Shown: positions 9,566 through 34,584 of the stretch, piece by piece | How positions within the stretch are numbered: position 1 is the stretch's first letter | How the letters are laid out: each line of letters opens with the position of its first letter | NCBI GenBank assembly: GCA_903920435.1 | Contig: CAIXMB010000115.1 | Location: 1 to 42,986, forward strand | Origin: an uncultured Actinomycetes bacterium | Lineage (GTDB): Bacteria; Actinomycetota; Actinomycetes; Actinomycetales; Microbacteriaceae | Length of the DNA: 42,986 nt | Direction: 5' to 3' | Position numbers and translations under genes: made by a program | Notes under the pieces: generated by a model | Seen by the model: only the letters and a program-made list of their open reading frames with translations | The model's database searches: none | What the model was told of the DNA's origin: nothing

Positions 9566-9832
9566 TCAGGCGGGCGAGGAGCCCTCGTCGACCTGCTTGC
9601 GCGGCATGGCGCCGAGGAGGCCGGCGAGCGCCGCGCCATCCGTCGAAGCGCCGCGGGCGGCCTGGAGATTGGCCTCCGTGACGGCCTGCATGACCTCGAG
9701 GCGGTGGATCACGACGCCGCGGGGCGCGTCGATGCCGATGCGCACGCCGTCGCCCTTGGCATCGAGGATGGTGATGACGATGTCGTCCCCGATGAGGATC
9801 TGTTCTCCGCGCTTGCGGGTCAGGACGAGCAT
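9566..9832 (-). CDS. csrA: Carbon storage regulator / flagellin translational repressor
   Basis: Small dimeric RNA-binding protein that represses mRNAs by binding GGA loops near ribosome-binding sites. The core is canonical: [18 protein letters not shown], then [15 protein letters not shown] with the conserved RNA-contact arginine region. At 88 residues it is longer than usual (about 60-75) because of an Ala/Gly-rich tail after residue 60. It is the last gene of the export-apparatus operon, following the FlhF-like gene by 9 bases. In flagellated Gram-positives CsrA is antagonised by FliW; fliW is present here but 27 kb away (36891-37262) rather than adjacent as in Bacillus. Likely targets include the fliC leader. 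Confidence 0.95.
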
Positions 9833-17717: not shown

Positions 17718-17745
17718 CTATCGGTCGGTGCACCGACCGCGTTAG
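17718..17745 (-). promoter_or_regulatory. Sigma-28-like promoter of fliM operon (CTAA-N16-ACCGATAG)
   Basis: On the minus strand CTAA (17745-17742), 16 bases, ACCGATAG (17725-17718). It matches the sigma-28/WhiG type consensus (TAAA, 15-16 bases, GCCGATAA) and four sister elements in this window. The -10 box ends 8 bases before the fliM GTG. Basis: pattern shared by five intergenic regions. Confidence 0.8.
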
Positions 17746-17755
17746 TAAATCTCCC

Positions 17756-17773
17756 CGCCCGTTTTTCCGGGCG
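17756..17773 (-). terminator. Stem-loop after motB
   Basis: Arms CGCCCG and CGGGCG with an A-rich loop, a few bases after the motB stop and just upstream of the fliM promoter. No T-run. It probably limits read-through from flbD-motA-motB into fliM. Confidence 0.5.
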
Positions 17774-17777
17774 CGCC

Positions 17778-18590
17778 TCACCCGGTTCCGGCGACCACCC
17801 CCGGGATGAGCGAGGCGGTGGCGCCGTCCAGTTCCGTGAGCACGACGATGTCGACGCGGCGGTTGAGCGCCGATTCCTCGGCGACCTCCGGATGCACGCC
17901 GCCGTAGCTCGTGGACGAGATGCGCTCGGGCGCGATGACCCCGGTCTCGACGAGCCTGCGGAGCACCGCCGTGCTGCGGGCACCCGCGAGCTCCCAGTCG
18001 TTGAGCGCGGGCGAGCCCTGGCCGTACGGGTCGATGTGGCCCTCGACGGAGACGTGGTTCGGGATGCCCGTGAGGGCGGCGCCGACCGCATCGATCGCGG
18101 TGATGGCCGTGGACTGCAGAGCGGCGCTGTCGCCCGCGAAGTAGGTCTGACCACCCAGGAGCTTGACCGTGAGGCCGCGCTCGTCGATGGCGAAGCTCAC
18201 CTGGTCCTGCAGCCCCTGCGCCGCGAGATTGGCCGTGATCTCCTTGACGAGCGCGTCGAACTCGGCGACCTCCTTCTTGGCGGCCTCCTTCGCCTTCGCG
18301 TCCTTGGTATCGGAGGCCGTGAAGCCGATTCCCTCCGAGTCGACGAGGTTGGGGTCGACGATGACGCCGACCGCGGAGTCGACCTCGGTGCTCGGCGTCG
18401 TGCCGAAGCCCGTCGCGAGCGAGTCCTTGAGCTGGGCGTACTTGTCGGCGTCGATGCTCGACATCGCGAACAGCACGAGGAACAGGCACATGAGTACGGT
18501 GATCATGTCGGCGTAGGAGACCAGCCAGCGCTCGTCGGCGTGGCCCTCGTCGTGAGCACCCCCCTTGTGCCCACGACCCTTTCTGCTCAT
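17778..18590 (-). CDS. motB: Flagellar stator protein MotB
   Basis: 270-residue stator subunit that anchors the MotA channel to peptidoglycan. A charged N-terminus (KGRGHKGGAHDEGH) precedes WLVSYADMITVLMCLFLVLF, with the essential proton-carrying aspartate at residue 28, then one membrane helix. The periplasmic-side OmpA-like peptidoglycan-binding domain (about 140-260) includes VSVEGHIDPYG and the usual LNRRVDIVV end motif. Residues 80-130 form a charged linker/plug region. The ATG at 18590 overlaps the motA stop by 4 bases. Confidence 0.95.
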   Translation of the reverse strand: MSRKGRGHKGGAHDEGHADERWLVSYADMITVLMCLFLVLFAMSSIDADKYAQLKDSLATGFGTTPSTEVDSAVGVIVDPNLVDSEGIGFTASDTKDAKAKEAAKKEVAEFDALVKEITANLAAQGLQDQVSFAIDERGLTVKLLGGQTYFAGDSAALQSTAITAIDAVGAALTGIPNHVSVEGHIDPYGQGSPALNDWELAGARSTAVLRRLVETGVIAPERISSTSYGGVHPEVAEESALNRRVDIVVLTELDGATASLIPGVVAGTG

Positions 18591-19369
18591 GCTGCCTTCG
18601 CCAGTTTCTCTGGCTTGCCCAGCGAGTGCGCGGGAACGAGGGCACGGAGGCGCTCGCCCACGACGCGCGGCTGGTTGCCGGCCTGCAGGGCGAGGATGCC
18701 CTCCACGATGATGGTCATGCGCTGCACGTCGAGCTCGACGAGGCGGATGAGCCTCGTGCCGATGGGCAGCCACAGGAAGTTGGCGGACAGCACGCCCCAC
18801 AGGGTGGCGACGAAGGCCGCCGCGATCGAGTGGCCGAGGGATCCGGGGTCCGAGAGGTTCTCGAGCACGTGCGTCAGCGAGACGACCGTGCCGATGATGC
18901 CGATCGTGGGCGCGTAGCCGCCCATCGACGTGAAGAACTTGGCGGCCTGGCGGGCGGCGCGCTCGCGCGTGGCGACCTGGTCTTCGAGCATGATCGCGAG
19001 ATCTTCGGCGTCCATGCCGTCGGCGACACCCTGAAGTGCCGATTTCAGGAACTCGTCGTCGATCTTGTCGGCCTCCTGCTCGAGGGCGAGCAGTCCCTGC
19101 CGGCGCGCGACCTCGGCGAGCTCGACGAGCTGGTCGATCGTCGCCTGCGGCTTGTACTTCACGCCCTTGAAGGCGCGCGGAAGCGACTTGACGGCCTGGA
19201 TGGCGTCGGGAACGGTCGTCGACGCGATGCCGACCGCGATCGTCGCGCCGAACACGAGGACCATTGGTGCCGGCAAGAGGATCGCGTTGATCGACGCGCC
19301 CTCCATGGTCATCATCGCCAAGAGCGCCCCGAAGGCGATGACGATGCCGATTATGGTTGCGGGATCCAT
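18587..19369 (-). CDS. motA: Flagellar stator protein MotA
   Basis: 260-residue stator channel subunit with four hydrophobic segments: two near the N-terminus (about 5-50) and two near residues 145-200. A large cytoplasmic loop between them carries the FliG-contact region, with charged positions such as RATRERAARQ. The GxIGTVVSLTHVLENL stretch and the conserved prolines of the third/fourth segments are visible. The ATG at 19369 overlaps the flbD stop by one base. Order flbD-motA-motB is standard for spirochaete/Gram-positive flagellar loci. Confidence 0.95.
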   Translation of the reverse strand: MDPATIIGIVIAFGALLAMMTMEGASINAILLPAPMVLVFGATIAVGIASTTVPDAIQAVKSLPRAFKGVKYKPQATIDQLVELAEVARRQGLLALEQEADKIDDEFLKSALQGVADGMDAEDLAIMLEDQVATRERAARQAAKFFTSMGGYAPTIGIIGTVVSLTHVLENLSDPGSLGHSIAAAFVATLWGVLSANFLWLPIGTRLIRLVELDVQRMTIIVEGILALQAGNQPRVVGERLRALVPAHSLGKPEKLAKAA

Positions 19370-19644
19370 CAGCGCCCCCCGGAGGGCACGCGCTCCGCGC
19401 GGTCGAACGGCACGACGCCGAGTGAGGTACCCGGCCCGTCGAAGGTCGGCATGGCCCGGGCGCGGGCGATGACCCCGGCGCGGTAGGCCGCGATCATCTC
19501 GATGACCTCGTCCATGGTCTCGGTGACGATGTAGCTGGTCCCCCCGACCAGCGTCAGCGTCGTGTCCGGGCTGGACTGGATGCGCTCGATGAGGTCAGGG
19601 TTGACCGCGAAGCGCGTGTTGTTGAGTCGCGTTACCACGATCAT
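19369..19644 (-). CDS. flbD: FlbD-family small flagellar protein
   Basis: 91 residues with the family opening MIVVTRLNN and the FAVNPDLIERIQSSPDTT pattern followed by LVGGTSYIVTETMDEV. It lies between flgE and motA, its usual place. The C-terminal 25 residues are longer and more basic than typical. The ATG at 19644 is preceded by GGGGGAG. Molecular function in Gram-positives is not well defined; this is not the Caulobacter transcription factor of the same name. Confidence 0.9.
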   Translation of the reverse strand: MIVVTRLNNTRFAVNPDLIERIQSSPDTTLTLVGGTSYIVTETMDEVIEMIAAYRAGVIARARAMPTFDGPGTSLGVVPFDRAERVPSGGR

Positions 19645-19689
19645 GATGACTCCCCCATTGGGCCGACGGAATAGTCGGCGTACTCACCA

Positions 19690-19717
19690 CTCTCGGCGGG
19701 GGAGGTAAACGTGTTAG
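19690..19717 (-). promoter_or_regulatory. Sigma-28-like promoter of flbD-motA-motB (CTAA-N16-GCCGAGAG)
   Basis: On the minus strand CTAA (19717-19714), 16 bases, GCCGAGAG (19697-19690). Spacing is identical to the other four elements. It predicts a leader of about 40 bases before the flbD ATG. Confidence 0.75.
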
Positions 19718-19728
19718 TTCACCCGCGT

Positions 19729-19766
19729 ACCCCGTTCGGGGTCACGGTTGTACCCCAATACTGGGG
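19729..19766 (-). terminator. Two stem-loops after flgE
   Basis: Two short inverted repeats follow the flgE stop: CCCCA-ATAC-TGGGG at 19753-19766 and ACCCCG-TT-CGGGGT at 19729-19742. Both are immediately upstream of the flbD promoter. Tandem G/C hairpins without U-runs are common actinobacterial terminators. They mark the end of the flgB-to-flgE transcript. Confidence 0.5.
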
Positions 19767-19775
19767 ACGCGGCGG

Positions 19776-20951
19776 TTAGCGCTTCAGGTTCGTGAGCTCC
19801 TGCAGTACCTCATCGGACGTGGTGATGATGCGGGCGTTGGCCTGGAAGCCGCGCTGGGCGACGATCAGGTTGGTGAACTCCTGCGACAGATCGACGTTCG
19901 ACATCTCGAGCGCGCCACCCATGAGCGAGCCGATGCCGCCGGTACCCGCGGTGCCGAGGGTCGCGCCGCCGGAGTTGATCGACGTGCGGTAGGTGGAGCC
20001 GCCAGCCTTCTCGAGGCCGCCCGGGTTGACGAAGGTCGCGAGCGCGATGCGTGCGATGGCCTCGGTCGAGCCGTTGCTGAACGACCCGATGAGCGTGCCG
20101 TCCTTCGAGAGCGAGAACGACTGCAGCGTGCCGGGCTCGCGGCCGTCCTGCTTGCTCGCCGCGATGGTGTTGAGGTCGGCGAATCCGGTGGTCGTGCTCA
20201 GGTCGATGGCGATGCCGTTGACCGTGAGGGTGCCGCCGGAGGAGACCTTGCCCGCCGCGTTGTAGACGAGGGCGCCGGTGGAGACCGTCGCGCCGTCGGT
20301 GGCCTTCGTGTTCCAGCCGGTCGCGGTGCGCGTGAACTCCATCGACACCGTGCGCGAGGCGCCGGTCGCGTCGTACACATCGACGTCGCGCGTGAGCACG
20401 TCGCCCACGGCGGTGCCCGCCGGGAGGTTGCCCGTCATGGTCACCGACGTCGTCGCGATCGCGGGGGCCACGGCGTTCTGCGGCAGGGTGATGTTGCCCG
20501 TCGCCCCGCCCGTGGTGGGCACGACCCCGTTCACGGCGGTCCAGCCCTGCACGAGCGCGCCATCGGGTGTGACCAGGCGTCCGCCGGCATCGAAGGAGAA
20601 GGAGCCGGCACGGGTGTACAGGGTCTCTCCGCCGGACTGCACCACGAAGAATCCGTCGCCCGAGATCATCATGTCGGTCGAGCGGCCCGTCGCCTGCGCC
20701 GAGCCCTGGGAGAAGTTGGTCGAGATCGCGGCGACCTGCACACCGAGTCCGATTTGCGCGGGGTTCGAGCCGCCCGACTCGGCCTGCGCACCGCTCGCGC
20801 CGCGCGTGAGCTGCGAGAGCGTGTCTTGGAACTGGGTGGCCGAGGCCTTGAACCCGGTGGTGTTGACGTTGGCGATGTTGTTACCCGTCACGTCGAGCAT
20901 CGTCTGGTGGGAGCGGAGTCCCGAGATCGCTGAGTAGAGTGCGCGAAGCAT
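19776..20951 (-). CDS. flgE: Flagellar hook protein
   Basis: 391-residue hook subunit. The N-terminal rod/hook domain reads MLRALYSAISGLRSHQTMLDVTGNNIANVNTTGFK across residues 1-35, and the C-terminal domain has the QEFTNLIVAQRGFQANARI signature. The FlgE/FlgG core motif GDGFFVV is at about residue 103. The variable middle domain is Thr/Ala-rich. It follows flgD, whose product caps the growing hook. It is the only FlgE/F/G family protein in the window, so separate distal-rod proteins FlgF/FlgG must lie elsewhere or be absent. Confidence 0.95.
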   Translation of the reverse strand: MLRALYSAISGLRSHQTMLDVTGNNIANVNTTGFKASATQFQDTLSQLTRGASGAQAESGGSNPAQIGLGVQVAAISTNFSQGSAQATGRSTDMMISGDGFFVVQSGGETLYTRAGSFSFDAGGRLVTPDGALVQGWTAVNGVVPTTGGATGNITLPQNAVAPAIATTSVTMTGNLPAGTAVGDVLTRDVDVYDATGASRTVSMEFTRTATGWNTKATDGATVSTGALVYNAAGKVSSGGTLTVNGIAIDLSTTTGFADLNTIAASKQDGREPGTLQSFSLSKDGTLIGSFSNGSTEAIARIALATFVNPGGLEKAGGSTYRTSINSGGATLGTAGTGGIGSLMGGALEMSNVDLSQEFTNLIVAQRGFQANARIITTSDEVLQELTNLKR

Positions 20952-20975
20952 GATGTGCCTTTCGTTGGGGTGGAG

Positions 20976-21407
20976 CTAGGAAGCGGTGGTGACGCCGGAG
21001 ATGGCGTCGAGGCGGATGGACTTGTCACCGATGGTGACGGTGGGTACGGAGTCGGCGAACGACACCGCGCTCGCGATGCCCTTCTTGGTGGTGCCGTCGG
21101 AGTCGACGTAGCCGACCTCCTTGCCGATGAGGGCGGAGGCCGCGACGCGCATCTGCAGCGAGAACGACTCCTGCGACAGGTTCGACATCGTGGTGAGCTG
21201 CTCCATGCTCGCGAGCTGCGCGGTCTGCGTCATCATCGCGTTGGTGTCCATGGGCGAACTCGGATCCTGCGCGCGCAGCTGGGCGACGAGCAGCTGCATG
21301 AACATCTGGCCGTCCATCTTCTGCTTCGCCGAGTTCTGCGCGGCGGTGATGGCGGCGGGCACCTCGACATTGCTGTTGTTGACTATCGAGTCGATGGGGC
21401 TGGTCAT
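20976..21407 (-). CDS. flgD: Flagellar hook capping/assembly protein
   Basis: 143 residues, a short FlgD lacking the C-terminal fibronectin/Ig-like domains of enterobacterial versions. The conserved N-terminal part is clear: MDGQMFMQLLVAQLRAQDP followed by PMDTNAMMTQTAQLASMEQL. ATG at 21407 with AGGAAGGA upstream; the longer frame 5' of it overlaps the fliK end and is not used. It lies 22 bases after fliK and 24 bases before flgE. Confidence 0.93.
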   Translation of the reverse strand: MTSPIDSIVNNSNVEVPAAITAAQNSAKQKMDGQMFMQLLVAQLRAQDPSSPMDTNAMMTQTAQLASMEQLTTMSNLSQESFSLQMRVAASALIGKEVGYVDSDGTTKKGIASAVSFADSVPTVTIGDKSIRLDAISGVTTAS

Positions 21408-21429
21408 CGGCGTCCTTCCTGTTCGGTGA

Positions 21430-22617
21430 TCATGCGAGGACGTCGAGACCGGCGTCTGAGCGGAGTGCTGAACGGATGCGCGCGGCCGGTGCCGCGGCAC
21501 CCGACTCGCTCACGCGCGCCTGTGCGGGGGCCTCCCGCGGAGCGCTCTCGCGCCCCGAGGGCTGGTTGCCCGACGACAGGTCGAGCGTCGCCTGGCCACC
21601 GGCACCGGAGAGGTCGCGCCGCAGGTCGGGCAGGATCGACTTGATCGCCTCACGGGCCTGGTCGGTCGGGGCGACGAGCTCGATGCGCATGCTGTCGCCG
21701 CTCACGTGCGCGCGCACGGCGACGGGGCCGAGGTTGTCGGGGGTCACGCGCACCGTGATGATGTGCGTTCCGTCGCCGAACGAGCGCAGCCCGTGCAACG
21801 GGCGGGCGAGCTGTCCGACGAGGTCGGGCGCCTGGGCGCGGGCCGGCGCAGCGGGTGCCGCGACCTCGTCGGGGGCTGAGGGGGCGGCAACCGCGGGGGC
21901 GGGCGGCGCGACCGCCACGGGAGCCGGGGCGGCGGGCGCGGTGTCCTTCGCCGCAGCGGCGGGCGCGTCGGCGGCGGGGTTAGACGCCGCGGCCGTCACG
22001 GTCAGGGGCGCGGGCTCCTCGGCAGTGATCGCCACCGGTGCGGGCTGGGCCTGCACGGGAGCGGGAAGCGGGAGCGGGAGCGCTGCGGCGAGCGCGGGGG
22101 CGGCGTCGGCGGTCACGGGAGCGTCGGCGGGGGCATCCGTGGTCTCGTCGGTGTCGCTGTCGGCGTCGCTGTCGGGGGTGGCCGCGGCAACGGCCACGGC
22201 GACCTCGGGGGTGACCTCAGCGGCGGTCGCGGCGCCGGCCTGCGCTTCGTCGGAAATGACGGAGATCGGGGCCGCGGGTGCCGCTGCTTCCGCAACGACG
22301 GGTTCCACAACGGGTGCGGTCTCCGTCATTTGTGACGGGAGGGCGGGGGCGGGGGCGGGGGCGGGGGCGACTGCGGCTCCGGGGAGCTCGACGGGTGCAG
22401 CGGCGGGAGTCGGCGTTGCGGCGGTCTCGGCCGTGGTGTCCGTGGGGAGGGCGGCCGTGGCAGCATCCGCGGGTGCGGTCGTCGCCGCGGTGAGCTCGCC
22501 GAGGGCGGTCTCGAACTCGGCGGCGAAGGCGGCCGGGTCTGCCGACTCCCCCTTCGCACCGGATGCCGACGCGTCGACGACGACGGGCGCCGGGGCGCTC
22601 GGGGCTACGGTGCTCAT
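21430..22617 (-). CDS. fliK: Flagellar hook-length control protein
   Basis: 395-residue ruler protein that measures hook length and triggers the FlhB switch. Residues about 1-280 are extremely Ala/Pro/Val-rich and low complexity, as is usual for the FliK ruler part. The conserved C-terminal Flg_hook domain is at about 282-350 (VRVTPDNLGPVAVRAHVSGD, then MRIELVAPTDQAREAI). The ATG at 22617 overlaps the stop of the NlpC/P60 gene. A stretch of four perfect GGGGGC hexamers (plus strand) encodes an alternating Pro-Ala run and could change ruler length by two residues per slip. Confidence 0.9.
   Translation of the reverse strand: MSTVAPSAPAPVVVDASASGAKGESADPAAFAAEFETALGELTAATTAPADAATAALPTDTTAETAATPTPAAAPVELPGAAVAPAPAPAPALPSQMTETAPVVEPVVAEAAAPAAPISVISDEAQAGAATAAEVTPEVAVAVAAATPDSDADSDTDETTDAPADAPVTADAAPALAAALPLPLPAPVQAQPAPVAITAEEPAPLTVTAAASNPAADAPAAAAKDTAPAAPAPVAVAPPAPAVAAPSAPDEVAAPAAPARAQAPDLVGQLARPLHGLRSFGDGTHIITVRVTPDNLGPVAVRAHVSGDSMRIELVAPTDQAREAIKSILPDLRRDLSGAGGQATLDLSSGNQPSGRESAPREAPAQARVSESGAAAPAARIRSALRSDAGLDVLA
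22345..22368. repeat. (GGGGGC)4 hexamer repeat inside fliK
   Basis: Four perfect tandem copies, read on the minus strand as Pro-Ala codons. Gain or loss of units stays in frame, so it would alter the length of the FliK linker rather than switch the gene off. Confidence 0.8.
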
Positions 22618-23249
22618 GAGATGCTCCTGGCGAGAATTGCGGCTTGCGCGTTGATGAGGGACTGGAGGGCCTCGCTGATCGAGGTGGTTCCGGTGCTGAA
22701 GCTCGTGAGCGACGACGACGTCGCGGTGGACGTCGATGCATCGGGGGCGACGCGGCGGATCGTCACGATGTCGGAGTCGTCGAACCACGCCTTCTGCTCG
22801 GTGACCGTGCGGCCCTCGTACGGCGCGTGGATGACGTTGCCGTTGCCCGCGTAGATCACGATGTGGGCGCCACCGTCGAGCACGATCAGGTCGCCGGGCT
22901 TCGCGTCGGCGAGTTTGCCCACCTCGGTGCCCGCCGTCATCTGCTCGTCCATGCTGCGGCCGACGGTGATCCCGGCATCGCCGAGCGCCTTCTGCACGAG
23001 GCCGGTGCAGTCGATGCCGTCTCGGCTCGTTCCGCCGAAGACGTAGGGCACGCCCTCGTAGCTCTCGGCGGCGGAGACGATGCCGGCACCGGTGGCCGTG
23101 GTTTCCGGTGCGGCGCTCGCCGCCGTGTCCTGCGCCTGCAGAGCGGCGATGAGCTTGGCGAAGAGCTCCTGCGAGTTCGTGGTCTTCGAGGGCGTGAGCT
23201 GCGCGAAGGTGGCCTGGATCGCCTGCAGCGATACCGCGTCGACGGTCAT
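22614..23249 (-). CDS. NlpC/P60 cell-wall hydrolase encoded within the flagellar operon
   Basis: 211 residues. Residues about 55-170 form an NlpC/P60 (C40) papain-like peptidase that cuts peptidoglycan stem peptides. Visible are VPYVFGGTSRDGIDCTGLVQ with catalytic Cys81, GGAHIVIYAG with His129, and VIHAP with His141 as third polar residue. The first 55 residues are an Ala/Gln-rich helical tail with no Sec signal peptide, so export through the flagellar gate or with the rod is likely. It lies between fliJ and fliK with 4-base overlaps on both sides. Function as a FlgJ-like hydrolase making room for the rod is inferred from context. Confidence 0.88.
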   Translation of the reverse strand: MTVDAVSLQAIQATFAQLTPSKTTNSQELFAKLIAALQAQDTAASAAPETTATGAGIVSAAESYEGVPYVFGGTSRDGIDCTGLVQKALGDAGITVGRSMDEQMTAGTEVGKLADAKPGDLIVLDGGAHIVIYAGNGNVIHAPYEGRTVTEQKAWFDDSDIVTIRRVAPDASTSTATSSSLTSFSTGTTSISEALQSLINAQAAILARSIS

Positions 23250-23683
23250 GGCGCCTCCTCCCCGTGGGCGGCGTGCCAGGCACGCGACGACAGGTCGTCG
23301 AGCAGCAGCTGCTCCTGGCGGAGCTCCTCGACGCGCTGCTGCTCCTCGTGGCGCTCCTCGAGCTTCTCGAGGCCCAGGGTCTTGCGGTGCGCGTCGGCGT
23401 GCGCCGCCGCGGCCTGCTCGACCGCTTCGGCGTTCTGGCGGTCAAGCTCACCGAGCTCGGAGAGCATGGTCGCCGAGCTCGCGCGCGTGGCGGCGATCGA
23501 GGCGAGCGACGCGTGCGCCGTCGGGTCCTCGTGCGCACCCTCGGCGAGGGCGCTGCGGATGCGGCGGGTGCGGGCAGCACCCACCGCCTCGCGATCCCGG
23601 GCCGAGTTGAGCTCGACGGCGCGCTGGTCCTCCTCGAGTTTGCGCAGGCGCAGCAGGCCGGCGAGCGAGAACTGGGCGCTCAT
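23246..23683 (-). CDS. fliJ: Flagellar export protein FliJ
   Basis: 145-residue, almost wholly helical, charged protein with the profile of FliJ, the coiled-coil rotor of the export ATPase. It begins MSAQFSLAGLLRLRKLEEDQ, the family start, and continues as Ala/Glu/Arg-rich heptads to the end. The ATG at 23683 overlaps the fliI stop by 4 bases. Sequence conservation in this family is low; order fliI-fliJ and the N-terminus support the call. Confidence 0.85.
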   Translation of the reverse strand: MSAQFSLAGLLRLRKLEEDQRAVELNSARDREAVGAARTRRIRSALAEGAHEDPTAHASLASIAATRASSATMLSELGELDRQNAEAVEQAAAAHADAHRKTLGLEKLEERHEEQQRVEELRQEQLLLDDLSSRAWHAAHGEEAP

Positions 23684-26616: not shown

Positions 26617-28259
26617 GCACGGCTCCTGTCATCCATGAGCGTGCGCAGGTGCTCGGCCATGCGCTCGGGGCTCGCGGCGGCGAGGCTGTCGAGCTCCTGG
26701 CGCATGCGCTCCACGCCGGGCTCGTCGAGGTCGGGGCCGAAGTTCGCGAAGGCCGACGGGCCGGCGACGAGGGGCTGCGCGGGCGGGAGCACGCCAGACC
26801 CGGCGGCCGCGGAATCGAGCGCCTGCGCCTGTGCTGCTTCGAGCGGGTCGCGCACCTGGGTCATCTCGCCGAGGTCCGTCTCGCCCTGCTTCTCGCGGCG
26901 CTTGGCGCTGCGGCGCAGGCCGCTCATGATGATGACGAGCACGATGATGACGCCGACGACGGGCACCGCCGTCGTGATGATCTGGGTGATGCTGCTCTGC
27001 AGCTCCGACGCGCGGGCCTCGTCGAGGGCCGTCGCTGCCGTGCCGCTGTCGACCTTCGCGAAGGCCACGAGCTCTACCTTGACCGAGTCGCCGCGGTCCT
27101 CGTCGATGCCCGCCGCGGCCGCGACGAGTCCCTCGAGCGTGGCTGCGGACATGCCCGCCGCGGCCTCCTTGTCGACGGCCACCGAGATGGTCTGGCGCTC
27201 GATCTGGCCCGCCGGGATCTGCGTGGTCTCGGTGACCTTGTTGATGGCGTTGGTCTTCGTCGAGCTCTCGGACGTGTAGCCGTTGCCGGTGGTCGTGCCG
27301 GTCGTGTCCGTGGGCACGGCGATGCTGTCGGCGCCGAGCACGCCGGTCTGGTTGGCGGCGGCGTCACCCGAGTACGTCTGGGTCGAGGTGTCCTCGGTGA
27401 GGGCCGGGTCGCCCTCGGGGGTCGTGAAGGTCTCCTCGACGCGCTGCCCGGAGTTGAGGCTCATGCTCGCGGCGACGGCGACCGTCGCGTTGCCGACGCC
27501 GACGACGCGATCGAGCATCGTCTGCACGGCGGAGCGCACCCTGTCCTCGTAGGTCGAGGCCTGCTGGTCGGTGTTGCCCGTCGTGCCGGTTCCGACCGCC
27601 GAGAGCACGGTGCCGTCGGCGGAGACCACGGAGACGTTCTCGGGCGTGAGCCCGTCGACCGAGGCCGCCGTGAGGTGGGTGATGGCCTGCACCTGGTCGG
27701 TCGAGAGGGTGACGCCGGACTCGGTGTCGATGAAGACCGACGCCGTCGGGTTCTGCTTCTCGGAGACGAACACCGACTTCTCGGGGATCGCGAGCTTGAC
27801 GGATGCGGTGCGCACGCCCTTGATCGACTCGATGGTCGAGGCGAGCTCGCCCTCGATCGCGCGCTTGTACGTGACGTTCTGCTGGAACTCCGACGCCGTG
27901 ACGCCCATCGCGTCGAGGAGGGCGTAACCACCGTTGTCGAGGCTGGGCAGGCCGGCAGCCGCCGCCTTCAGACGGGCCGAGTTGACCTCGGAGTCGGGCA
28001 CGAGGATCGTCTGGCCGCCGTCGGTGAGCTGGTACGAGACGCCGTCGGCGTCGAGCTGGTCGACGATGGCGCTCGCGTCGGAGCCGCTCAGGCCCGAGAA
28101 CAGCGGCGAGTACGTGGAGCGCGTGAACCAGGCGCCGAGCGCGATGGCGCCCACCACGAGCACGGCGACGCCGATGATCGCGATGGTGCGCTGGCCGACC
28201 GTGAACTCGCGCAGCGCGTGGGTGATCCGGCCGAACGCGGCGGAGACTTCCTTGGGCAT
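26613..28259 (-). CDS. fliF: Flagellar MS-ring protein FliF
   Basis: 548-residue MS-ring protein. An N-terminal membrane helix (about 25-47) leads to the YscJ/FliF ring-building domains (YSPLFSGLSGSDASAIVDQL, YALLDAMGVTASEFQQNVTY, AIPEKSVFVSEKQNPTASV). A Thr/Gly-rich loop follows, then a second membrane helix (about 420-445). The C-terminal cytoplasmic tail (PGVERMRQELDSLAAASPE) binds FliG. The ATG at 28259 shares one base with the fliE stop. Complete and of normal length. Confidence 0.97.
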   Translation of the reverse strand: MPKEVSAAFGRITHALREFTVGQRTIAIIGVAVLVVGAIALGAWFTRSTYSPLFSGLSGSDASAIVDQLDADGVSYQLTDGGQTILVPDSEVNSARLKAAAAGLPSLDNGGYALLDAMGVTASEFQQNVTYKRAIEGELASTIESIKGVRTASVKLAIPEKSVFVSEKQNPTASVFIDTESGVTLSTDQVQAITHLTAASVDGLTPENVSVVSADGTVLSAVGTGTTGNTDQQASTYEDRVRSAVQTMLDRVVGVGNATVAVAASMSLNSGQRVEETFTTPEGDPALTEDTSTQTYSGDAAANQTGVLGADSIAVPTDTTGTTTGNGYTSESSTKTNAINKVTETTQIPAGQIERQTISVAVDKEAAAGMSAATLEGLVAAAAGIDEDRGDSVKVELVAFAKVDSGTAATALDEARASELQSSITQIITTAVPVVGVIIVLVIIMSGLRRSAKRREKQGETDLGEMTQVRDPLEAAQAQALDSAAAGSGVLPPAQPLVAGPSAFANFGPDLDEPGVERMRQELDSLAAASPERMAEHLRTLMDDRSRA

Positions 28260-28564
28260 CAGGCCTGCATTCTCATGATCTCGTTGAACGCCTCGACGCC
28301 CTTGTTGCGAACGGCCGCGACGACCTCCATGGTCACCTGGGCGCGCGTGGCGGCGATGGTGGCCTGGTGGATGTCGTTGAGGTCACCGGTGACCGCCTTG
28401 ATGGCGAGCGTGTCTGAGGTGGACTGCAGCTGCTGCAGATTGTCGACCGCGCCGGCGAGGGTCGAGCCGAAGTCGGCGGCACCCGTGGTGCCCGACGTCG
28501 TCATCGTCGTGTCGAGGTAGCTCGTGGGGGCGACGGAGGCCACGGCCGAGACGGGGAGGACCAT
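28259..28564 (-). CDS. fliE: Flagellar hook-basal body adapter FliE
   Basis: 101-residue adapter between the MS-ring and the rod. The C-terminal half has the family pattern DLNDIHQATIAATRAQVTME followed by VRNKGVEAFNEIMRMQ. The ATG at 28564 overlaps the flgC stop by one base (TAATG). The canonical flgB-flgC-fliE-fliF order supports the call. Confidence 0.94.
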   Translation of the reverse strand: MVLPVSAVASVAPTSYLDTTMTTSGTTGAADFGSTLAGAVDNLQQLQSTSDTLAIKAVTGDLNDIHQATIAATRAQVTMEVVAAVRNKGVEAFNEIMRMQA

Positions 28565-28956
28565 TAGCTTCTGCCGATCTGGATAGCTGCTTCGTAGGTG
28601 GTCTTCGCGCGGTCGACCACGGCGGCGTTCGCCTCGTAGCCGCGCTGCGCCATGATCAGCTGGCTCATCTGCTGGCCGAGGTCGATGTCGGGGTAGCGCA
28701 CGTAGCCCTTGTCGTCGGCGAGGGGGTGGTCGGGCTCGTAGACCATGCGGCCCTCGGCGCTGCCGTACGCGCCACCCTTGACGTAGACGCCGGTCGTGCC
28801 CTCGCCGGCCTCGGCGATGACGTAGTGGGCGCGGAACGCCTCGTCCGAACTCGCGCGCACGGTGTTGATGTTCGCGATGTTGTCGGAGACGGCGTCGAGC
28901 CACTTGCGGTGCACGGTGAGCGCGGTGCCAGCGATGGCGATGGCATCGGTGCTCAT
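28564..28956 (-). CDS. flgC: Proximal rod protein FlgC
   Basis: 130-residue rod subunit. The N-terminal motif WLDAVSDNIANINT and the C-terminal GQQMSQLIMAQRGYEANAAV are the rod-protein signatures; the short middle (YVKGGAYGSAEGRMVYEPDHPLA) matches FlgC. The ATG at 28956 follows flgB by 16 bases. Confidence 0.96.
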   Translation of the reverse strand: MSTDAIAIAGTALTVHRKWLDAVSDNIANINTVRASSDEAFRAHYVIAEAGEGTTGVYVKGGAYGSAEGRMVYEPDHPLADDKGYVRYPDIDLGQQMSQLIMAQRGYEANAAVVDRAKTTYEAAIQIGRS

Positions 28957-28972
28957 GAGTTACCTCCGGACA

Positions 28973-29314
28973 TCAGTTGCCTCCCAGCGCTGCACGCACG
29001 TAGTTGAACTGGGCGCTCGTCGCGTTGGACGCGAACTGGAAGCGCAGCACGGTGTCGATGTTCGAGAGAGTCTCGGTGTCGAGGTTGACGTTGTTGCCGT
29101 CGGTGCGCGTGGGGTCGAGAGACGCCTTGGTCGTGGGGGCGACGACGCCGCTGCCCTCGGCGACCGACTTGGCGAGGGCCTCCTCGAAGGAGACGCGCTG
29201 GGCCTGGTAGCCCGGGGTATTCACGTTCGCGATGTTGTTCGCGATCGCACGCTGGCGCGCCGAGAGACCATCCAGTGCACTGGAGAGTGCGTTGAAGGTG
29301 ACCGAATCGAACAC
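28973..29314 (-). CDS. flgB: Proximal rod protein FlgB
   Basis: 113-residue rod subunit and first gene of the basal-body operon. Residues 10-40 carry the rod motif (SARQRAIANNIANVNTPGYQ) and FEEALAK follows. The GTG at 29314 begins the family sequence MFDSV. A sigma-28-like promoter 80-107 bases upstream (29394-29421) predicts a leader of about 70 bases. No strong Shine-Dalgarno sequence is seen. Confidence 0.95.
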   Translation of the reverse strand: MFDSVTFNALSSALDGLSARQRAIANNIANVNTPGYQAQRVSFEEALAKSVAEGSGVVAPTTKASLDPTRTDGNNVNLDTETLSNIDTVLRFQFASNATSAQFNYVRAALGGN

Positions 29315-29393
29315 GGCATCCGTTCCAGGGTGAAAGGAAAAGACGGCCGATCCGTGGCCATGAAATAGTTGAGCTATCCGTGCTCTGTTGTAC

Positions 29394-29421
29394 CTATCGG
29401 CGCTTCCGGCAGGCGCGTTAG
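29394..29421 (-). promoter_or_regulatory. Sigma-28-like promoter of flgB operon (CTAA-N16-GCCGATAG)
   Basis: On the minus strand CTAA (29421-29418), 16 bases, GCCGATAG (29401-29394), the closest match in the window to the textbook GCCGATAA -10 of sigma-28 promoters. It lies in the only gap between the fliC-side genes and flgB. Confidence 0.85.
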
Positions 29422-29452
29422 CAGTTTGTGCAAAAACGCTTCGGGTTGAGCT

Positions 29453-29770
29453 TTAACCTTCGACGTCGAGGTAGGCCGACTGATGGCCGCGCACGGGCTC
29501 GGCTGCCCGGACGGCAGCCAAGTGCTCGCCCGTCTTGCGGCGCGCCTCGTCGAGGGCCTCGATGGCGATGCGCTGCTGGTCGATGAGATCCCGCACCGTG
29601 TGTGCGTACTCGTCGGGCAGCGGCCCGACGATGGTGGGCGGCGACCAGTCGGCCGACGCGATGCGACCGCCGTCTTCGAGCACCTCGCCCGACTTCAGAC
29701 GCGCGAGATCGCCTTCCAGCTCACCCAGGATCATGCGCCACGAGGCGTTGATCTCCTCGCGATCAGGCAA
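29453..29770 (-). CDS. Small helical protein in FliT position
   Basis: About 105 residues, predicted mainly helical and acidic, with no motif I can assign. It directly follows fliS, where many flagellar clusters encode FliT-like chaperones, and it ends just before the flgB promoter. No ATG is available near the start. TTG at 29770 has GGAG nine bases upstream and is my choice; TTG at 29776 is the alternative. Both overlap the fliS stop at 29763. A chaperone or regulator for late export substrates is inferred from position only. Confidence 0.65.
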   Translation of the reverse strand: MPDREEINASWRMILGELEGDLARLKSGEVLEDGGRIASADWSPPTIVGPLPDEYAHTVRDLIDQQRIAIEALDEARRKTGEHLAAVRAAEPVRGHQSAYLDVEG

Positions 29771-30203
29771 AGCCAAGGTCTCCGGTGCCGGTACCCGCGT
29801 GCTGGGCGATGGACTGCTGAGCGACGATCGCGGCGGCCTCGTGCCAGGTCTGGCGCAGCGGCTCCATGATCGCGATGACCTCCCGCGTGCGCTCGATGGA
29901 GTGCTCGACGTTGGCGCTCACGAGCTTCGTCGAGGAGAACAGGTAGATCGCGAGCAGGTTCTGCCCGCCGTCCCAGCGCTCGACGTCGAGCGTGCCCGCG
30001 AGCTCGGCCACGATGTCCTGCGCGTGGATGAGGTAGCCGGATGCCCGGTTCCAGTCCTGCTCGGACTGCGCGGCCTCTGCGCGCTGCAGATCGAGCATGA
30101 GCCTGTCGAACAGCATGGTGAGCAGCCGGCCGGGCGACGCGGAGAGGATCGCGTCCTGGTTGTACTGCGCCCGTGCGAGGCGCGGATCCTGGGTCATGGT
30201 CAT
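29763..30203 (-). CDS. fliS: Flagellin chaperone FliS
   Basis: 146-residue helical chaperone that binds the flagellin C-terminus before export. Family features: ARAQYNQDAILSASPGRLLTMLFDRLMLDL at the N-terminal half and NLLAIYLFSSTKLVSANVEH in the helical bundle. The ATG at 30203 overlaps the fliD stop; a second ATG two codons later is also possible. In CsrA-FliW systems FliS helps keep flagellin available for FliW. Confidence 0.95.
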   Translation of the reverse strand: MTMTQDPRLARAQYNQDAILSASPGRLLTMLFDRLMLDLQRAEAAQSEQDWNRASGYLIHAQDIVAELAGTLDVERWDGGQNLLAIYLFSSTKLVSANVEHSIERTREVIAIMEPLRQTWHEAAAIVAQQSIAQHAGTGTGDLGFA

Positions 30204-31585
30204 GAGCTGGTCCCCGATGAGAGTGCAGCGAGCTGTGATGTCAGCCAGCTTGATTGGGCTTGGAGATTGCTGAGCGAGACCTCGAGGGCCGAGTAGGTGC
30301 GCTCGAGGCCCGCGCGCTGCGAGGCGAGGCGCACATCCCAGCTGTCGATCTGGTCGCCGAGCGACTTGAGCGACGACTGCTGGCCCGTGATCACCTGCGT
30401 GAGCGAGCCCGTGTACTGGTTCGACGCGGCGTCGGCCGCCGTCGCGACGCGATCGGAGATGGTCTGCAGCATGGCCTGAGTGCCCGCGGGGTCGTCGGCG
30501 AGCGCGGCCTGGAACTTGGCGGAGTCGTACGTGATGCCGCCGTCCTTCGTGATCGAGATGCCGATCGCGGAGGGCGACTTGCCGTTCACCGGGGCGGTGG
30601 CGGCGGTCATGATCTGCGCGTTCACGTCGCGCACCGACGAGTTGCCGGTGAAGACTCCCGCCGACGTGGTGGCCTTGCCCGAGGCATCCGTGCCCTGGGT
30701 CACCGTGGACTTGCTCGCGATGAAGTTGAAGACGGAGGTGAGGTTGCCCACGAGGTTCTCGGCGAGCTTGCCGACGGCCGCGGTGTCTTTGGCGATCGTG
30801 ATCGAGACGGGCGACGCCTCGACCTTCGAGACGGTGACGTTGACGCCCGGCAGGAGGTCGGTGAAGGTGTTCGTCTTCGAGGTGATGACCTGCTCGGCGG
30901 CGGTTCCGGCCCACAGCGTCACGGACGCGTCGCTCGCGGCCTGCACCGTCGCGGCGCCGGTCGCGGTGAGGAGGTTCGTGGCGGTGCCCGCGGTGACCTC
31001 CGCCGCGCTGCCGCGGAAGACCTGGAAGGCACCGTCGGCACCCGTCGCCGCGGAGCTGAGCTGGAGGCGGTACTGCGGGTCTGCGCCGCTCGTGCCCGCG
31101 GCGACCCTGGTGGCCTTGACCCCGGCGGACGAGGCGTTGATGGCATCCGCGATGTCGGACATCGCCGTCGAGGCTGCGGTGATCTCGACCTTGGTGCCGT
31201 CGGCCTTGACGACGGTGAACGTCGCGGGGCTGTCGGGCCACGCGGTCATGGCCGCAGTGACCGAGACCTGCGTCTTCGCCGTGGACGTGACGCTCAGGTC
31301 GAGCTGGCCGGGAGCGGCGCCGTTACCGGCGGTGACGGTCACGCTCGTGGCGCTCGAGGTGGTGGAGAAGAGATTGGTCGCGGTCGGGAGGGCCGTGGCC
31401 TTGGCGAACGACGCGAGCGAGGCGACCGACGTGTTGAGGCTCTGGAAGGCGCTCACGAGGGTCTGGGTGGTGGTGACCTTGGCTTTGAGCAGCGTCTGCG
31501 GCTGCGACTCCACGGTCATCAGCTGGTTGATGAGGTCGGTGGTGTTCAGGCCGCTGACGAGGCCGTCAATAGCAAGTGAACCCAT
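30200..31585 (-). CDS. fliD: Filament cap protein FliD (HAP2)
   Basis: 461-residue filament cap. The N-terminal FliD domain opens AIDGLVSGLNTTDLINQLMTVE, and the C-terminal domain has the coiled-coil pattern ISDRVATAADAASNQYTGSL and SLKSLGDQIDSWDVRLASQR before LERTYSALE. The Ala/Thr-rich middle is variable. ATG at 31585 with GAGGAGAGGA upstream. It follows fliC after a hairpin and probably depends partly on read-through from the fliC promoter. Confidence 0.95.
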   Translation of the reverse strand: MGSLAIDGLVSGLNTTDLINQLMTVESQPQTLLKAKVTTTQTLVSAFQSLNTSVASLASFAKATALPTATNLFSTTSSATSVTVTAGNGAAPGQLDLSVTSTAKTQVSVTAAMTAWPDSPATFTVVKADGTKVEITAASTAMSDIADAINASSAGVKATRVAAGTSGADPQYRLQLSSAATGADGAFQVFRGSAAEVTAGTATNLLTATGAATVQAASDASVTLWAGTAAEQVITSKTNTFTDLLPGVNVTVSKVEASPVSITIAKDTAAVGKLAENLVGNLTSVFNFIASKSTVTQGTDASGKATTSAGVFTGNSSVRDVNAQIMTAATAPVNGKSPSAIGISITKDGGITYDSAKFQAALADDPAGTQAMLQTISDRVATAADAASNQYTGSLTQVITGQQSSLKSLGDQIDSWDVRLASQRAGLERTYSALEVSLSNLQAQSSWLTSQLAALSSGTSS

Positions 31586-31625
31586 GGTGTCCTCTCCTCA
31601 TCGGGTAGCCACCCACCGGGGTGAC

Positions 31626-31651
31626 GGGGCAGGACCCGAAGGCCCTCCCCC
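31626..31651 (-). terminator. Stem-loop with UUCG tetraloop after fliC
   Basis: On the minus-strand RNA, GGGGGAGGGCC and GGTCCTGCCCC flank the loop UUCG. Six pairs close the tetraloop (one is G-U), then one mismatch and four more G/C pairs. A C(UUCG)G loop is unusually stable. It lies 50 bases past the fliC stop and 41 bases before fliD, fitting a terminator or 3' stabiliser that makes flagellin mRNA more abundant than fliD. Confidence 0.6.
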
Positions 31652-31700
31652 GCCACCACCGGAGGATGTGCGTTAGTTCAGTTCAGTTGTGCGACTGGGA

Positions 31701-32849
31701 CTAGCGCAGGAGCTGCAGGATGCCAGAGGTGCTCTGGTTGGCCTGGGCCAGCATCGCGGTGCCGGCCTGCTGCAGGATGTTGGCACGCGTGTACTTGACC
31801 ATCTCCTCAGCCATGTCCGTGTCGCGGATGCGCGATCCGGCCGCCGACAGGTTCTCCTTCGAGACTGCCAGGTTGCGGATGACGCTCTCGAAGCGGTTCT
31901 GCTGTGCACCGAGGTCGGCGCGAGCGGTCGACACCGACGAGATGCGCGCGTCGATCGCCGTGATGGCGGCAGCCGACGTGGTCGCGTTGGTGAAGTTGAG
32001 CACGCCGCCGGCGACAGCGGAGCTGGCACCGAATCCGGTACCGGCCGATGCGTCGGTGCCTGCGGTGGCGCCACCGACGACCGCGCCGCCGGTGAGCGAG
32101 CTCACGACGAGCTGGTTGTTCTGGTTCACCGTGGCGTTGAGCTTCGACTTGAAGCCGGTGTCGTTGTTGAGGGCGTTCGCGACGTCCTGCACCGTCTTGT
32201 AGGTGCCGGCCGCACCGAGCGTGACGCTCAGCGTGGTGTCGGTGGTGCCCTCGGTGACCGTGAACTGCTGGGCACCGGTGACCGCGGTCGGGGTGACCAC
32301 GTCGAACTTCGCGCCAGCGCCGCCCGTGGTGAGGCCGGTGGCCAGACCCGCGATGTTGGTGAGGTTGACCGCGATGCGGCTCGCCGCGTCGCCGTTGGCG
32401 CCCACCTGGAAGCTCAGGGTCGAGGCCGAGCCGTCGAGCAGCTTGGTGCCGTTGAAGTCCGTTCCGGCGGCGATGCGACCGAGCTCGGTCGTGAGCGCGG
32501 ACACCTCAGTGGTGATCGCGGCGCGCGAGGTCGAGTTGTTCGAGTCGTTACCGGCCTGGACAGCGAGGTCACGCATGCGCTGCAGGATCGTGTGGACCTC
32601 GGAGAGCGAGCCTTCAGCGGTCTGGATGACCGAGATGCCGTCCTGCGCGTTGCGGGAGGCGACCGTGAGGCCACCGACCTGCGACTTGAGGCCCTCAGAG
32701 ATCGCGAGGCCTGCCGCGTCATCCGCTGCGCGGTTGATGCGAAGACCGCTGGAGAGCTTCTCCAGCGACTTGGACAGGTCGTTCTGCGTGTTCGTGAGGT
32801 TGCGGTACGAGTTGTTCGCCGCGATGTTGGTGTTGATTGACATACCCAT
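31701..32849 (-). CDS. fliC: Flagellin
   Basis: 382-residue filament subunit. The D0/D1 ends are strongly conserved: INTNIAANNSYRNLTNTQN and LSSGLRINRAADDAAGLAIS at the N-terminus, and AGSRIRDTDMAEEMVKYTR with ANILQQAGTAMLAQANQ at the C-terminus. The middle (about 150-290) is a variable D2/D3-type domain rich in Ala/Thr/Gly. ATG at 32849 has GGAGG eight bases upstream; an ATG two codons later (MSINTN) is the alternative. Regulated by a sigma-28-like promoter at 32911-32938 and probably by CsrA at its leader. It is the only flagellin in the window. Confidence 0.97.
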   Translation of the reverse strand: MGMSINTNIAANNSYRNLTNTQNDLSKSLEKLSSGLRINRAADDAAGLAISEGLKSQVGGLTVASRNAQDGISVIQTAEGSLSEVHTILQRMRDLAVQAGNDSNNSTSRAAITTEVSALTTELGRIAAGTDFNGTKLLDGSASTLSFQVGANGDAASRIAVNLTNIAGLATGLTTGGAGAKFDVVTPTAVTGAQQFTVTEGTTDTTLSVTLGAAGTYKTVQDVANALNNDTGFKSKLNATVNQNNQLVVSSLTGGAVVGGATAGTDASAGTGFGASSAVAGGVLNFTNATTSAAAITAIDARISSVSTARADLGAQQNRFESVIRNLAVSKENLSAAGSRIRDTDMAEEMVKYTRANILQQAGTAMLAQANQSTSGILQLLR

Positions 32850-32854
32850 GGTGA

Positions 32855-32896
32855 TTTCCTCCGTGATGTGGGCTTGTAGAACCGGTCCATCCGTGG
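32855..32896 (-). promoter_or_regulatory. Candidate CsrA-binding sites in the fliC leader
   Basis: Two GGA sites in the roughly 55-base leader. One is CACGGAGG and covers the Shine-Dalgarno sequence (GGA at 32862-32860). The other is CCACGGATGG (GGA at 32892-32890), close to the CsrA consensus ACAxGGAxG. About 30 bases separate them, so one CsrA dimer could bridge both, as shown for the Bacillus hag leader. CsrA and FliW are both encoded in the window. Confidence 0.55.
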
Positions 32897-32910
32897 TCCG
32901 GCACTGTTGA

Positions 32911-32938
32911 CATTCGGTTGTTGCTGGAGTGACGTTAG
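32911..32938 (-). promoter_or_regulatory. Sigma-28-like promoter of fliC (CTAA-N16-ACCGAATG)
   Basis: On the minus strand CTAA (32938-32935), 16 bases, ACCGAATG (32918-32911). The spacing matches the sister elements. It lies just after the sigma-factor stop codon and predicts a flagellin leader of about 55 bases. Confidence 0.8.
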
Positions 32939-32958
32939 TTAAGTTCCCGAAAGGGGGG

Positions 32959-33780
32959 TCAGGAGACGGCTGACTCCGCCCAGCCCGTGTCGACGAGGCC
33001 GTCGACCATGCCGGCCTTGGCGTATTCGGCGACGCGAGCGAGGTACGCGGCCCGGCGAACGGGGGCGATCCGGGATTCGGCGGCCGCCTGCGCGGCGCGC
33101 TCGTCCTCCGAGTAGTGGGTGGTGAGGCCGTCGCGGATGAGGCGCACGGCTTCCGCCCGCTTCTGCGAGACGGCGGAGTGGGTGAATCCGAGCTCCTCAG
33201 CGATCTCCTTCACCGTGCGCTCCTCGAAGTAGATCTGCTCGATGATGTAGCGCATGTCGTCGGGGAGGGCCGCAACCGACGAGCGCACGAACACCGTGCG
33301 CTCCTGCGTGATGACCGTCTCCTCGGGGGTGGAGTTGTCGGCGATGAGCAGGTCGGTGTTGATCTCGTCGAGGGTGCTCACGGTGCGGGAGGCATCGGTG
33401 AGGGCATCCGTGGCGGTCTGCCTGTCCACGCCGAGGGTGGAGGCGATCTCGTCGACGCTGGGCGCGCGGCCGAGGGAGGCGGTGAGGGTCTCCTGCACCG
33501 CGAGGGTCTCACGGATGCGGCGGCGCGCGCTGCGCGTCGCCCAGTCGTCGGTGCGCATGGTGTCGGCGAACGAGCCGATGATGCGGCGGCGGGCGAAGGC
33601 GCCGAAGGGAACGCCGAGGGACGGGTCGAAGGCGTCGGCGGAGGTCACGAGCGCGAGGGCGCCGGCAGCTGCCAGGTCGTCGCGCGAGAGATGGGTCGCG
33701 CGTGCGCACAGGTCGCGCACGAGATAGCCCACCAATGGCAGGTTCTCAACGACGAGCGCGTTGCGTTGTTCTCGATTCAC
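32959..33780 (-). CDS. FliA/WhiG-like flagellar sigma factor
   Basis: 273-residue sigma-70 family protein. Region 2 is visible (LPLVGYLVRDLCARATHLSRDDLAAAG, FDPSLGVPFGAFARRRIIGSFAD), then region 3 (RRRIRETLAVQETLTASLGRAPSVDEIASTLGV pattern) and region 4 with RTVKEIAEELGFTHSAVSQK. This is the layout of sigma-28/WhiG. About 50 residues continue after region 4, more than usual. GTG at 33780 is preferred because GGGGAG lies six bases upstream; GTG at 33801 has none. It sits between fliC and the divergent flgN operon, and the CTAA-N16-RCCGA elements are its probable targets. No FlgM anti-sigma gene is visible. Its own promoter shows no such element. Confidence 0.9.
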   Translation of the reverse strand: MNREQRNALVVENLPLVGYLVRDLCARATHLSRDDLAAAGALALVTSADAFDPSLGVPFGAFARRRIIGSFADTMRTDDWATRSARRRIRETLAVQETLTASLGRAPSVDEIASTLGVDRQTATDALTDASRTVSTLDEINTDLLIADNSTPEETVITQERTVFVRSSVAALPDDMRYIIEQIYFEERTVKEIAEELGFTHSAVSQKRAEAVRLIRDGLTTHYSEDERAAQAAAESRIAPVRRAAYLARVAEYAKAGMVDGLVDTGWAESAVS

Positions 33781-33857
33781 CGAGTGCTCCCCAGAAGTCA
33801 CCGATTTACTGCGGGTACGGCCCCGAGGGGTCGCTTGTACATTCGTCGGGATACCGG

Positions 33858-33927
33858 GGTGAGGCAGTGGGTAGTGGGTAAGCCCTCACCGGTGACAATT
33901 CACAAGTATGGGGGGTAACCACCCCCC
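33858..33927. promoter_or_regulatory. Two inverted repeats in the divergent sigma-flgN region
   Basis: The gap 33781-34076 contains GGTGAGG...CCTCACC (33858-33864 with 33884-33890, 19-base loop) and GGGGGG-TAACCA-CCCCCC (33910-33927). Another C6 run follows at 33933-33938. They lie 78 bases or more upstream of the sigma-factor start and upstream of the flgN promoter. They may be operators for a regulator of the sigma gene. Apart from these and the flgN promoter I see nothing else in this gap. Confidence 0.4.
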
Positions 33928-33998
33928 AGACACCCCCCACAACGGGTGCGCGTGTCGCCAGAAACGTGTTCGGAGTAGCGTGATATATGAATTCGTCG

Positions 33999-34026
33999 CT
34001 AACGGGGGACGCTGGGCTGCCGACAG
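33999..34026 (+). promoter_or_regulatory. Sigma-28-like promoter of flgN-flgK-flgL-fliW (CTAA-N16-GCCGACAG)
   Basis: On the plus strand CTAA (33999-34002), 16 bases, GCCGACAG (34019-34026). It is the only one of the five elements on this strand, and it points into the plus-strand flagellar operon. It predicts a leader of about 45 bases. Confidence 0.85.
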
Positions 34027-34562: not shown

Positions 34563-34584
34563 GCGGCGTTATTGGGGGCGCGGC

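Follow-up and report, generated by a model that had tools for sequence, protein, structure and literature searches.

What drives flagellar gene expression in an uncultured bacterium of the Microbacteriaceae, and which sigma factor reads its promoters? The question arises from contig CAIXMB010000115.1, positions 1 to 42,986 (the whole stretch analyzed, hereafter the window), in which an earlier note had described five intergenic elements of the form CTAA, 16 bases, and (A/G)CCGA, and had named the FliA/WhiG-like sigma factor encoded there as their likely reader. All five were present and exact (CTAA-N16-RCCGA), with positions and strands as reported. Four are on the minus strand and one on the plus strand, all begin with CTAAC, and each lies on the coding strand, 23-79 nt 5' of the probable start codon of fliM, flbD, flgB, hag, or flgN. 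From the evidence presented below, we consider it very probable that they are the -35/-10 promoters of the sigma-28-class FliA encoded between them. The elements, the genes behind them, and fliA are as follows:

17718..17745, minus strand: predicted FliA promoter, CTAAC-N15-ACCGATAG, 23 nt 5' of the probable fliM GTG (17694); behind it fliM, fliN, fliO, fliP, fliR, flhB, and flhA, with csrA farther downstream.
19690..19717, minus strand: predicted FliA promoter, CTAAC-N15-GCCGAGAG, 45 nt 5' of flbD; behind it flbD, motA, and motB.
29394..29421, minus strand: predicted FliA promoter, CTAAC-N15-GCCGATAG, 79 nt 5' of flgB; behind it flgB, flgC, fliE, fliF, fliG, fliH, fliI, fliJ, flgD, and flgE.
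32911..32938, minus strand: predicted FliA promoter, CTAAC-N15-ACCGAATG, 61 nt 5' of the flagellin gene; behind it hag, fliD, and fliS.
32959..33801, minus strand: fliA, a divergent FliA/WhiG-type sigma factor, with a GTG start at 33801.
33999..34026, plus strand: predicted FliA promoter, CTAAC-N15-GCCGACAG, 50 nt 5' of the probable flgN ATG (34077); behind it flgN, flgK, a flgL-like gene, and fliW.

Dinucleotide shuffles of the window (n = 100) contained a mean of 0.09 elements and at most 2, as compared to the 5 observed. CTAA is itself depleted, as the earlier note had remarked, with 12 copies on the two strands versus 27 in shuffles, and the elements account for 5 of the 12. Enteric sigma-28 promoters have a 15-base spacing. 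The likeness to sigma-28/WhiG promoters that had been proposed was supported by our comparison; the proposed difference of 16 instead of 15 bases was not, since TAAA-N15-GCCGATAA counted one base earlier becomes (C)TAA-N16-GCCGA. The two spacings are a frame offset in one register, and the -35/-10 distance is 15 bases in all five elements. One published account gives the sigma-28 boxes as TAAA and GCCGATAA (PMC8325347) and another gives those of Bacillus subtilis SigD as TAAA-N13-16-GCCGATAW (PMC3865298). The -35 box shows a single fixed difference. The bases following TAAC-N15-RCCGA in the five elements are TAG, GAG, TAG, ATG, and CAG. The true departures from TAAA-N15-GCCGATAA are therefore TAAC for TAAA, i.e., a C at the last -35 base, and a -10 box that ends in G.

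The candidate reader has the Pfam domains Sigma70_r2, r3, and r4, and its best NCBIfam model is TIGR02479. Its best match in the PDB was 1rp3, named sigma-28 (FliA), and 6pmi was matched as well; we take these to be FliA of Aquifex and E. coli, respectively. Its nearest named relatives come from metagenome bins that bear the names Rhodoglobus, Salinibacterium, and Leifsonia, which makes a member of the Microbacteriaceae, the lineage of Rhodoglobus, the most likely host. A search of the organism's own draft genome (204 contigs totaling 3,164,108 bases; 96% complete) with the FliA protein sequence matched fliA alone. The recognition helix, residues 207-215 when numbered from the GTG at 33801, is THSAVSQKR, and its E. 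coli counterpart is GESRVSQLH. In the mechanism that we propose, CTAAC would be read by region 4.2 of FliA bound to RNA polymerase, and RCCGATAG by the part of FliA that reads the -10 box, and RNA would start a few bases 3' of the latter, as in the known family. Binding, start sites, and dependence on FliA are what we infer from these sequences.

Comparison with relatives carries much of this argument. Of 22 named fliA loci, all but one (L055) had CTAAC-N15/16-RCCGA, i.e., 21, with variable spacers and mostly as CTAAC-N15-RCCGATAG, which is also the commonest form in the family. Among the individual sites, the hag element is conserved at the flagellin genes of relatives, the flgB element was found in 19 of the 21 relatives listed, and the flgN-side element recurs 5' of fliA on the opposite strand. 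The flbD element is likewise present in other genomes, including all four of a later-read set whose FliA has an HAA helix (discussed below). The fliM element was present in 4/4 genomes of this same set and in 0/4 fliM upstreams of another set; it is less constant than the others, and where it is absent fliM may be transcribed on from flbD-motA-motB. Co-occurrence with FliA was scored with a strict 28-mer (CTAA-N16-RCCGANDG) in 249 genomes of the family, our own included. FliA status was read by hand among the matches listed (profile start <=5, E no higher than 8e-32). One or more strict sites were present in 69 of 75 FliA-positive and 19 of 174 FliA-negative genomes, and at least three in 55/75 and 0/174, respectively. 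G216 (start 3, E 3.7e-31, no motif) lay just outside the cut and the doubtful G053 inside it, and swapping the two leaves all four counts unchanged. Surroundings were viewed for 9 of the 30 loci returned by the family-wide motif search, 5 of the 9 being from FliA-positive genomes.

Does the element mark genes outside of the flagellar cluster? In the draft genome, exact matches to the 28-mer were the five window elements and nothing else, in agreement with the earlier statement that no other full copy lies between genes. With one mismatch allowed, there were 99 matches versus 103 for the reversed control, so a matrix scan that tolerates mismatches would be lost in background. CTAAC-N14..16-RCCGA gave 6 matches (reversed control, 10), of which five are in the window and the sixth is within a 695-codon open reading frame (ORF). 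Together with the 25-mer core considered below, three patterns were scanned in the draft genome and no convincing extra site was found, so that regulon prediction from this consensus, as suggested earlier, gained nothing convincing beyond the cluster in this genome. The regulon visible through the motif is the flagellar cluster.

The C in the -35 box raised the question of whether box and recognition helix change together. The start codon, the leader hairpin, and the -10 box served to locate flagellin promoters from across Actinomycetes, and only then were the -35 letters read. A wider -10 pattern allowed 101 flagellin upstreams to be classed (7 were missed), 3 of them with an unclassed FliA owing to an in-frame stop. 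Sorted by helix residues 208-210, HSA went with CTAAC in 55/58 promoters, ESR with CTCAG or CTCAA in 15/19, HAA with CTTAC in 4/4, QSR with CTCA plus any base in 9/13, and RSR with CTCAA in 3/4. Among 17 HSA upstreams for which our first regular expression found no -10 box, 16 had CTAAC and one had CTGAC, and 13 had a TCGA-type -10 box. The first eight HAA or PSA genomes read all had CTTAC or GTTAC. A strict helix code was then rejected, because four further HAA genomes (G751, G796, G764, and G738), in which CTTAC was expected, had CTAAC at 8 sites and CTTAC at 6; at one of the CTTAC sites the -10 box is GGCGATAA. Other exceptions were L216 (HSA), with CTTAC at flgB and CTAAC at flagellin; L056 (HSA), with CTTAC at flagellin; and L224, which combines CTAAC with a QSR helix. 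The code is a tendency and not a strict rule.

In trees built without the helix columns, HAA appeared at separate places, many inner branches being weak (28/75 and 38/110). Independent pairs on the tree numbered one for R210 versus A210 and two or three for S209 versus A209; with just 2-3 such pairs, a sign test cannot reach significance. For this count, third-base states were entered by hand for 93 FliAs. FliAs without a clear box or a located promoter were omitted, among them L223, L227, L127, L055, L164, L205-L207, L209-L211, L217, L231-L233, L239, L203, L204, and L215. The states of L134 and L141 were taken from flbD, promoters whose -10 box had changed were used for L128 and L166, and L216 was scored A despite the T in its flgB promoter. 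Co-variation of helix and -35 box across Actinomycetes is thus likely but not proven.

Three further observations concern FliA in relatives. Flagellar promoters of the form GTTAC-N14/15-TCGCGATAG occur in G600 and G164 (L183, L166, and L190), so that the -10 box has shifted too, and FliA region 2.4 has also diverged there. In three genomes, two of them in one genus, fliA matches with one in-frame stop (L203, L204, and L215) lie near normal-looking flagellin promoters. In three genomes of a single genus, which belongs to the same order as our own organism, FliA has the helix THSAVSQQK (L164, L209, and L211; flanks L185, L186, and L251-L254). The flanks of the latter (~28 kb on each side) contained no clear promoter element and no match to seven flagellar query proteins, although partial matches were printed for some of the queries only; this is possibly an orphan FliA.

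Which genes stand behind the five elements in the window? On the minus strand, Pfam matches identified flagellin, FliD, FliS, FlgB, FlgC, FliE, FliF, FliG, FliH, the export ATPase (FliI), FlgD, FlgE, FlbD, MotA, MotB, FliM, FliN, FliO, FliP, FliR, FlhB, FlhA, and CsrA, with FliJ a weak match below the cut-off; on the plus strand they identified FlgN, FlgK, a flagellin-fold protein (FlgL-like), and FliW. Members of one fold family were named by position, and fliQ and the stretch 21501-22613 are not among the genes identified. Each identified flagellar gene except fliA is downstream of one of the elements, in its own direction. The earlier claim that the elements point into every flagellar transcription unit therefore holds for all flagellar genes identified and fails for fliA, which has no such element 5' and so needs another sigma factor. 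FliA sites are not limited to late genes, as they also occur 5' of flgB and fliM. FlgM (PF04316) had no match in the draft genome, 96% complete as noted above, in a search whose control was positive in 3 of 14 genomes, well-known ones. Loss of FlgM has been described in actinobacterial classes lacking FlgF and FlgG, in an account that does not name Microbacteriaceae (PMC10746217). One type of promoter before basal-body, export, motor, hook, and filament genes, combined with the lack of a FlgM match, suggests that FliA would switch on the entire organelle in a single tier, instead of being reserved for late genes. The absence of FlgM would fit, since FliA could not be held back until the basal body is complete if the basal body itself depends on FliA. 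Under this scheme, fliA would be expressed from a promoter of another kind, and FliA would then start the five units together.

The motor encoded here probably serves a flagellum without chemotaxis. FliM usually has an N-terminal CheY-binding peptide. The FliM of the window (16816-17694, minus strand) starts at the middle domain and has no room for such a peptide, and neither methyl-accepting chemotaxis proteins (MCP) nor CheW had a match in the draft genome; swimming is therefore probably not chemotactic. Some actinobacterial species are marked as lacking a chemosensory system in the account cited above for FlgM (PMC10746217). Two other proteins are encoded on the minus strand. A 288-aa protein between flhA and csrA (9842-10708) had no Pfam match and a weak match to the FlhF N-terminus (E 0.003), and may be an FlhF remnant or an unknown flagellar protein. 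An NlpC/P60 family protein, encoded inside the flagellar run between fliJ and flgD (22614-23249), may be a hydrolase that opens the cell wall for the rod.

Are the transcripts so started also controlled as RNA? Two leaders contain GGA-loop hairpins, and the features concerned are:

9566..9832, minus strand: csrA, encoding an 88-aa protein that may read the GGA hairpins.
29341..29390, minus strand: tandem GGA-loop hairpins in the flgB leader (29315-29393), putative CsrA sites.
32860-32864, minus strand: second ACGGA, over the flagellin Shine-Dalgarno.
32880..32903, minus strand: GGA-loop hairpin with hexaloop ACGGAU in the flagellin leader (32850-32910), putative CsrA site.
36891..37262, plus strand: fliW, candidate CsrA antagonist.

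CsrA targets have been described as ANGGAN hairpins together with a site over the Shine-Dalgarno (PMC7652899). Among flagellin upstreams, a hairpin with an AYGGAN loop was present in 74/75 and AYGGA near the Shine-Dalgarno in 61/75, and the window has both. Pairs 3-8 of this hairpin co-vary: over 62 distinct hairpins, 305 of 372 cells were paired versus 240 when shuffled, a value reached in 0 of 500 shuffles, although the figure is inflated by relatedness. The flgB leader of the window has GAGC-ACGGAUA-GCUC and GGCC-ACGGAUC-GGCC, both of which appear in the centroid fold and only the second in the minimum-energy fold; among flgB upstreams, each of the two GGA-loop motifs was found in 22/25. 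The stems of these seven-base-loop hairpins hardly vary, and our pair table, which assumed a six-base loop, is silent on them. Folding energies of the window's own leaders were unremarkable (z -0.25 and -0.93), so that support for the flagellin hairpin comes from conservation and co-variation, and Rfam gave no match at E up to 1 across 28500-34600. GGA-loop hairpins recur in the relatives fetched across Actinomycetes. They are probably CsrA sites in both the flagellin and flgB leaders, where CsrA, antagonized by FliW, would add a second layer of control at the RNA level. In L193 and L201, which have an ESR-type FliA, the flbD leader also has a CCACGGACGG hairpin.

Several results weigh against reading the elements as FliA promoters. 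The 25-mer core (CTAA-N16-RCCGA) had 8 exact matches in the draft genome, 5 of them in the 43-kb window, as compared to 15 for the reversed control, a pattern that carries AATC and not CTAA; the three matches beyond the window are inside or across mechanical ORFs. The evidence is accordingly the clustering and conservation of the element and not its genome-wide total. FliA scored 122.2 bits, below the curated cut-off of 189.6 for TIGR02479, which none of the 249 family genomes reaches, so that this model does not cover the clade. Among the matches listed, the strict motif is missing from six of the 75 genomes scored as having FliA: G016, G159, and G185 have CTAAC with a different -10 ending, G163 has CTTAC, G164 has GTTAC, and the G053 protein, just 29% identical, is probably no FliA. 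By the same call, 19 FliA-negative genomes carry one or two copies (23 matches over 174). Lastly, the TAAA box of E. coli is read by a FliA with an ESR helix, so co-variation of helix and box is not universal. The elements could instead be operators of a DNA-binding regulator, e.g., the LuxR-type response regulator at 37748-38473, since this gene and a histidine-kinase-like protein adjoin the cluster and the sites are few and specific. However, spacing near-fixed at 15 bases around a variable spacer, an orientation always towards the gene, a -10 box that matches sigma-28, co-occurrence with FliA, and a box that tends to co-vary with the FliA helix make operators highly improbable. FliA as reader, as the earlier note had it, gains support from footprinting and co-occurrence and, less firmly, from the helix.

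Even if the elements are FliA promoters, the departure from TAAA might be neutral drift of the -35 box, its link to the helix reflecting shared ancestry only. We regard this as a serious if somewhat doubtful alternative: the independent pairs on the tree are too few for significance, the four later HAA genomes mix two boxes, and L056, L216, and L224 break the pattern, whereas the eight HAA or PSA genomes read earlier agree on CTTAC or GTTAC from separate places in the tree, many of its branches being weak. It might also be that undetected primary-sigma promoters drive the early operons in vivo and the FliA sites merely boost them. In Clostridium difficile, early flagellar genes are described as partly SigD-independent, with a SigA-type start at flgB (PMC3865298), and the absence of a FliA site at fliA itself and of an element 5' of fliM in four genomes would suit this idea. 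The flgB site of most relatives and the flbD and fliM elements of all four later HAA genomes speak against it, and we consider it rather less likely than not.

Taken together, these results lead us to a combined model, which we hold tentatively and with slightly less than even confidence. A degenerate helix code would have arisen by co-evolution, residues 208-210 biasing the box towards CTCAG/A (ESR), CTCA with other bases (QSR), CTTAC or a mixture (HAA), and CTAAC (HSA). The flagellar hierarchy would have been reduced to a single FliA tier that lacks FlgM, and control would have shifted to RNA, where CsrA and FliW would gate both the flgB rod operon and the hag filament gene. The promoters are ordinary in kind and well supported; what is probably new is a -35 box specific to this lineage, together with a layout that is probably single-tier and a layer of control that is probably due to CsrA. 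Among the papers listed in our literature searches, we found no earlier description of the CTAAC box or of hairpins in an flgB leader, the latter sought in Actinobacteria. The consensus is of use for flagellar promoters in Microbacteriaceae and relatives, which a textbook TAAA search could miss. The pairs of sigma factors and promoters form a natural series for studying -35 recognition by region 4.2. The locus also offers a testable model in which flagella could be built without a FlgM checkpoint, via leaders of the CsrA type on flagellin and the first operon for the rod.

How, then, does this locus compare with known systems? It shares with sigma-28 flagellar promoters the two boxes, the in-register spacing, the class of sigma factor, and placement 5' of flagellin and other flagellar genes, and differs in the C as last -35 base, the -10 box ending in G, the inclusion of early operons, and the lack of a FlgM match. 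Actinoplanes missouriensis likewise has an actinobacterial FliA with a flagellar cluster, and its FliA promoters were reportedly described by Jang and co-workers in 2016 as CTCA(N15-17)GCCGAA. That CTCA agrees with the CTCAG/CTCAA that we found for ESR-type FliA, whereas the window has CTAAC, and an HSA rather than an ESR helix. The B. subtilis hag leader is described as having two CsrA sites, one of them over the Shine-Dalgarno (PMC7652899). As in that CsrA-FliW-Hag system, csrA and fliW are in the cluster and the flagellin leader has an ANGGAN hairpin and a Shine-Dalgarno site; in contrast to it, two extra GGA hairpins are present in the flgB leader.

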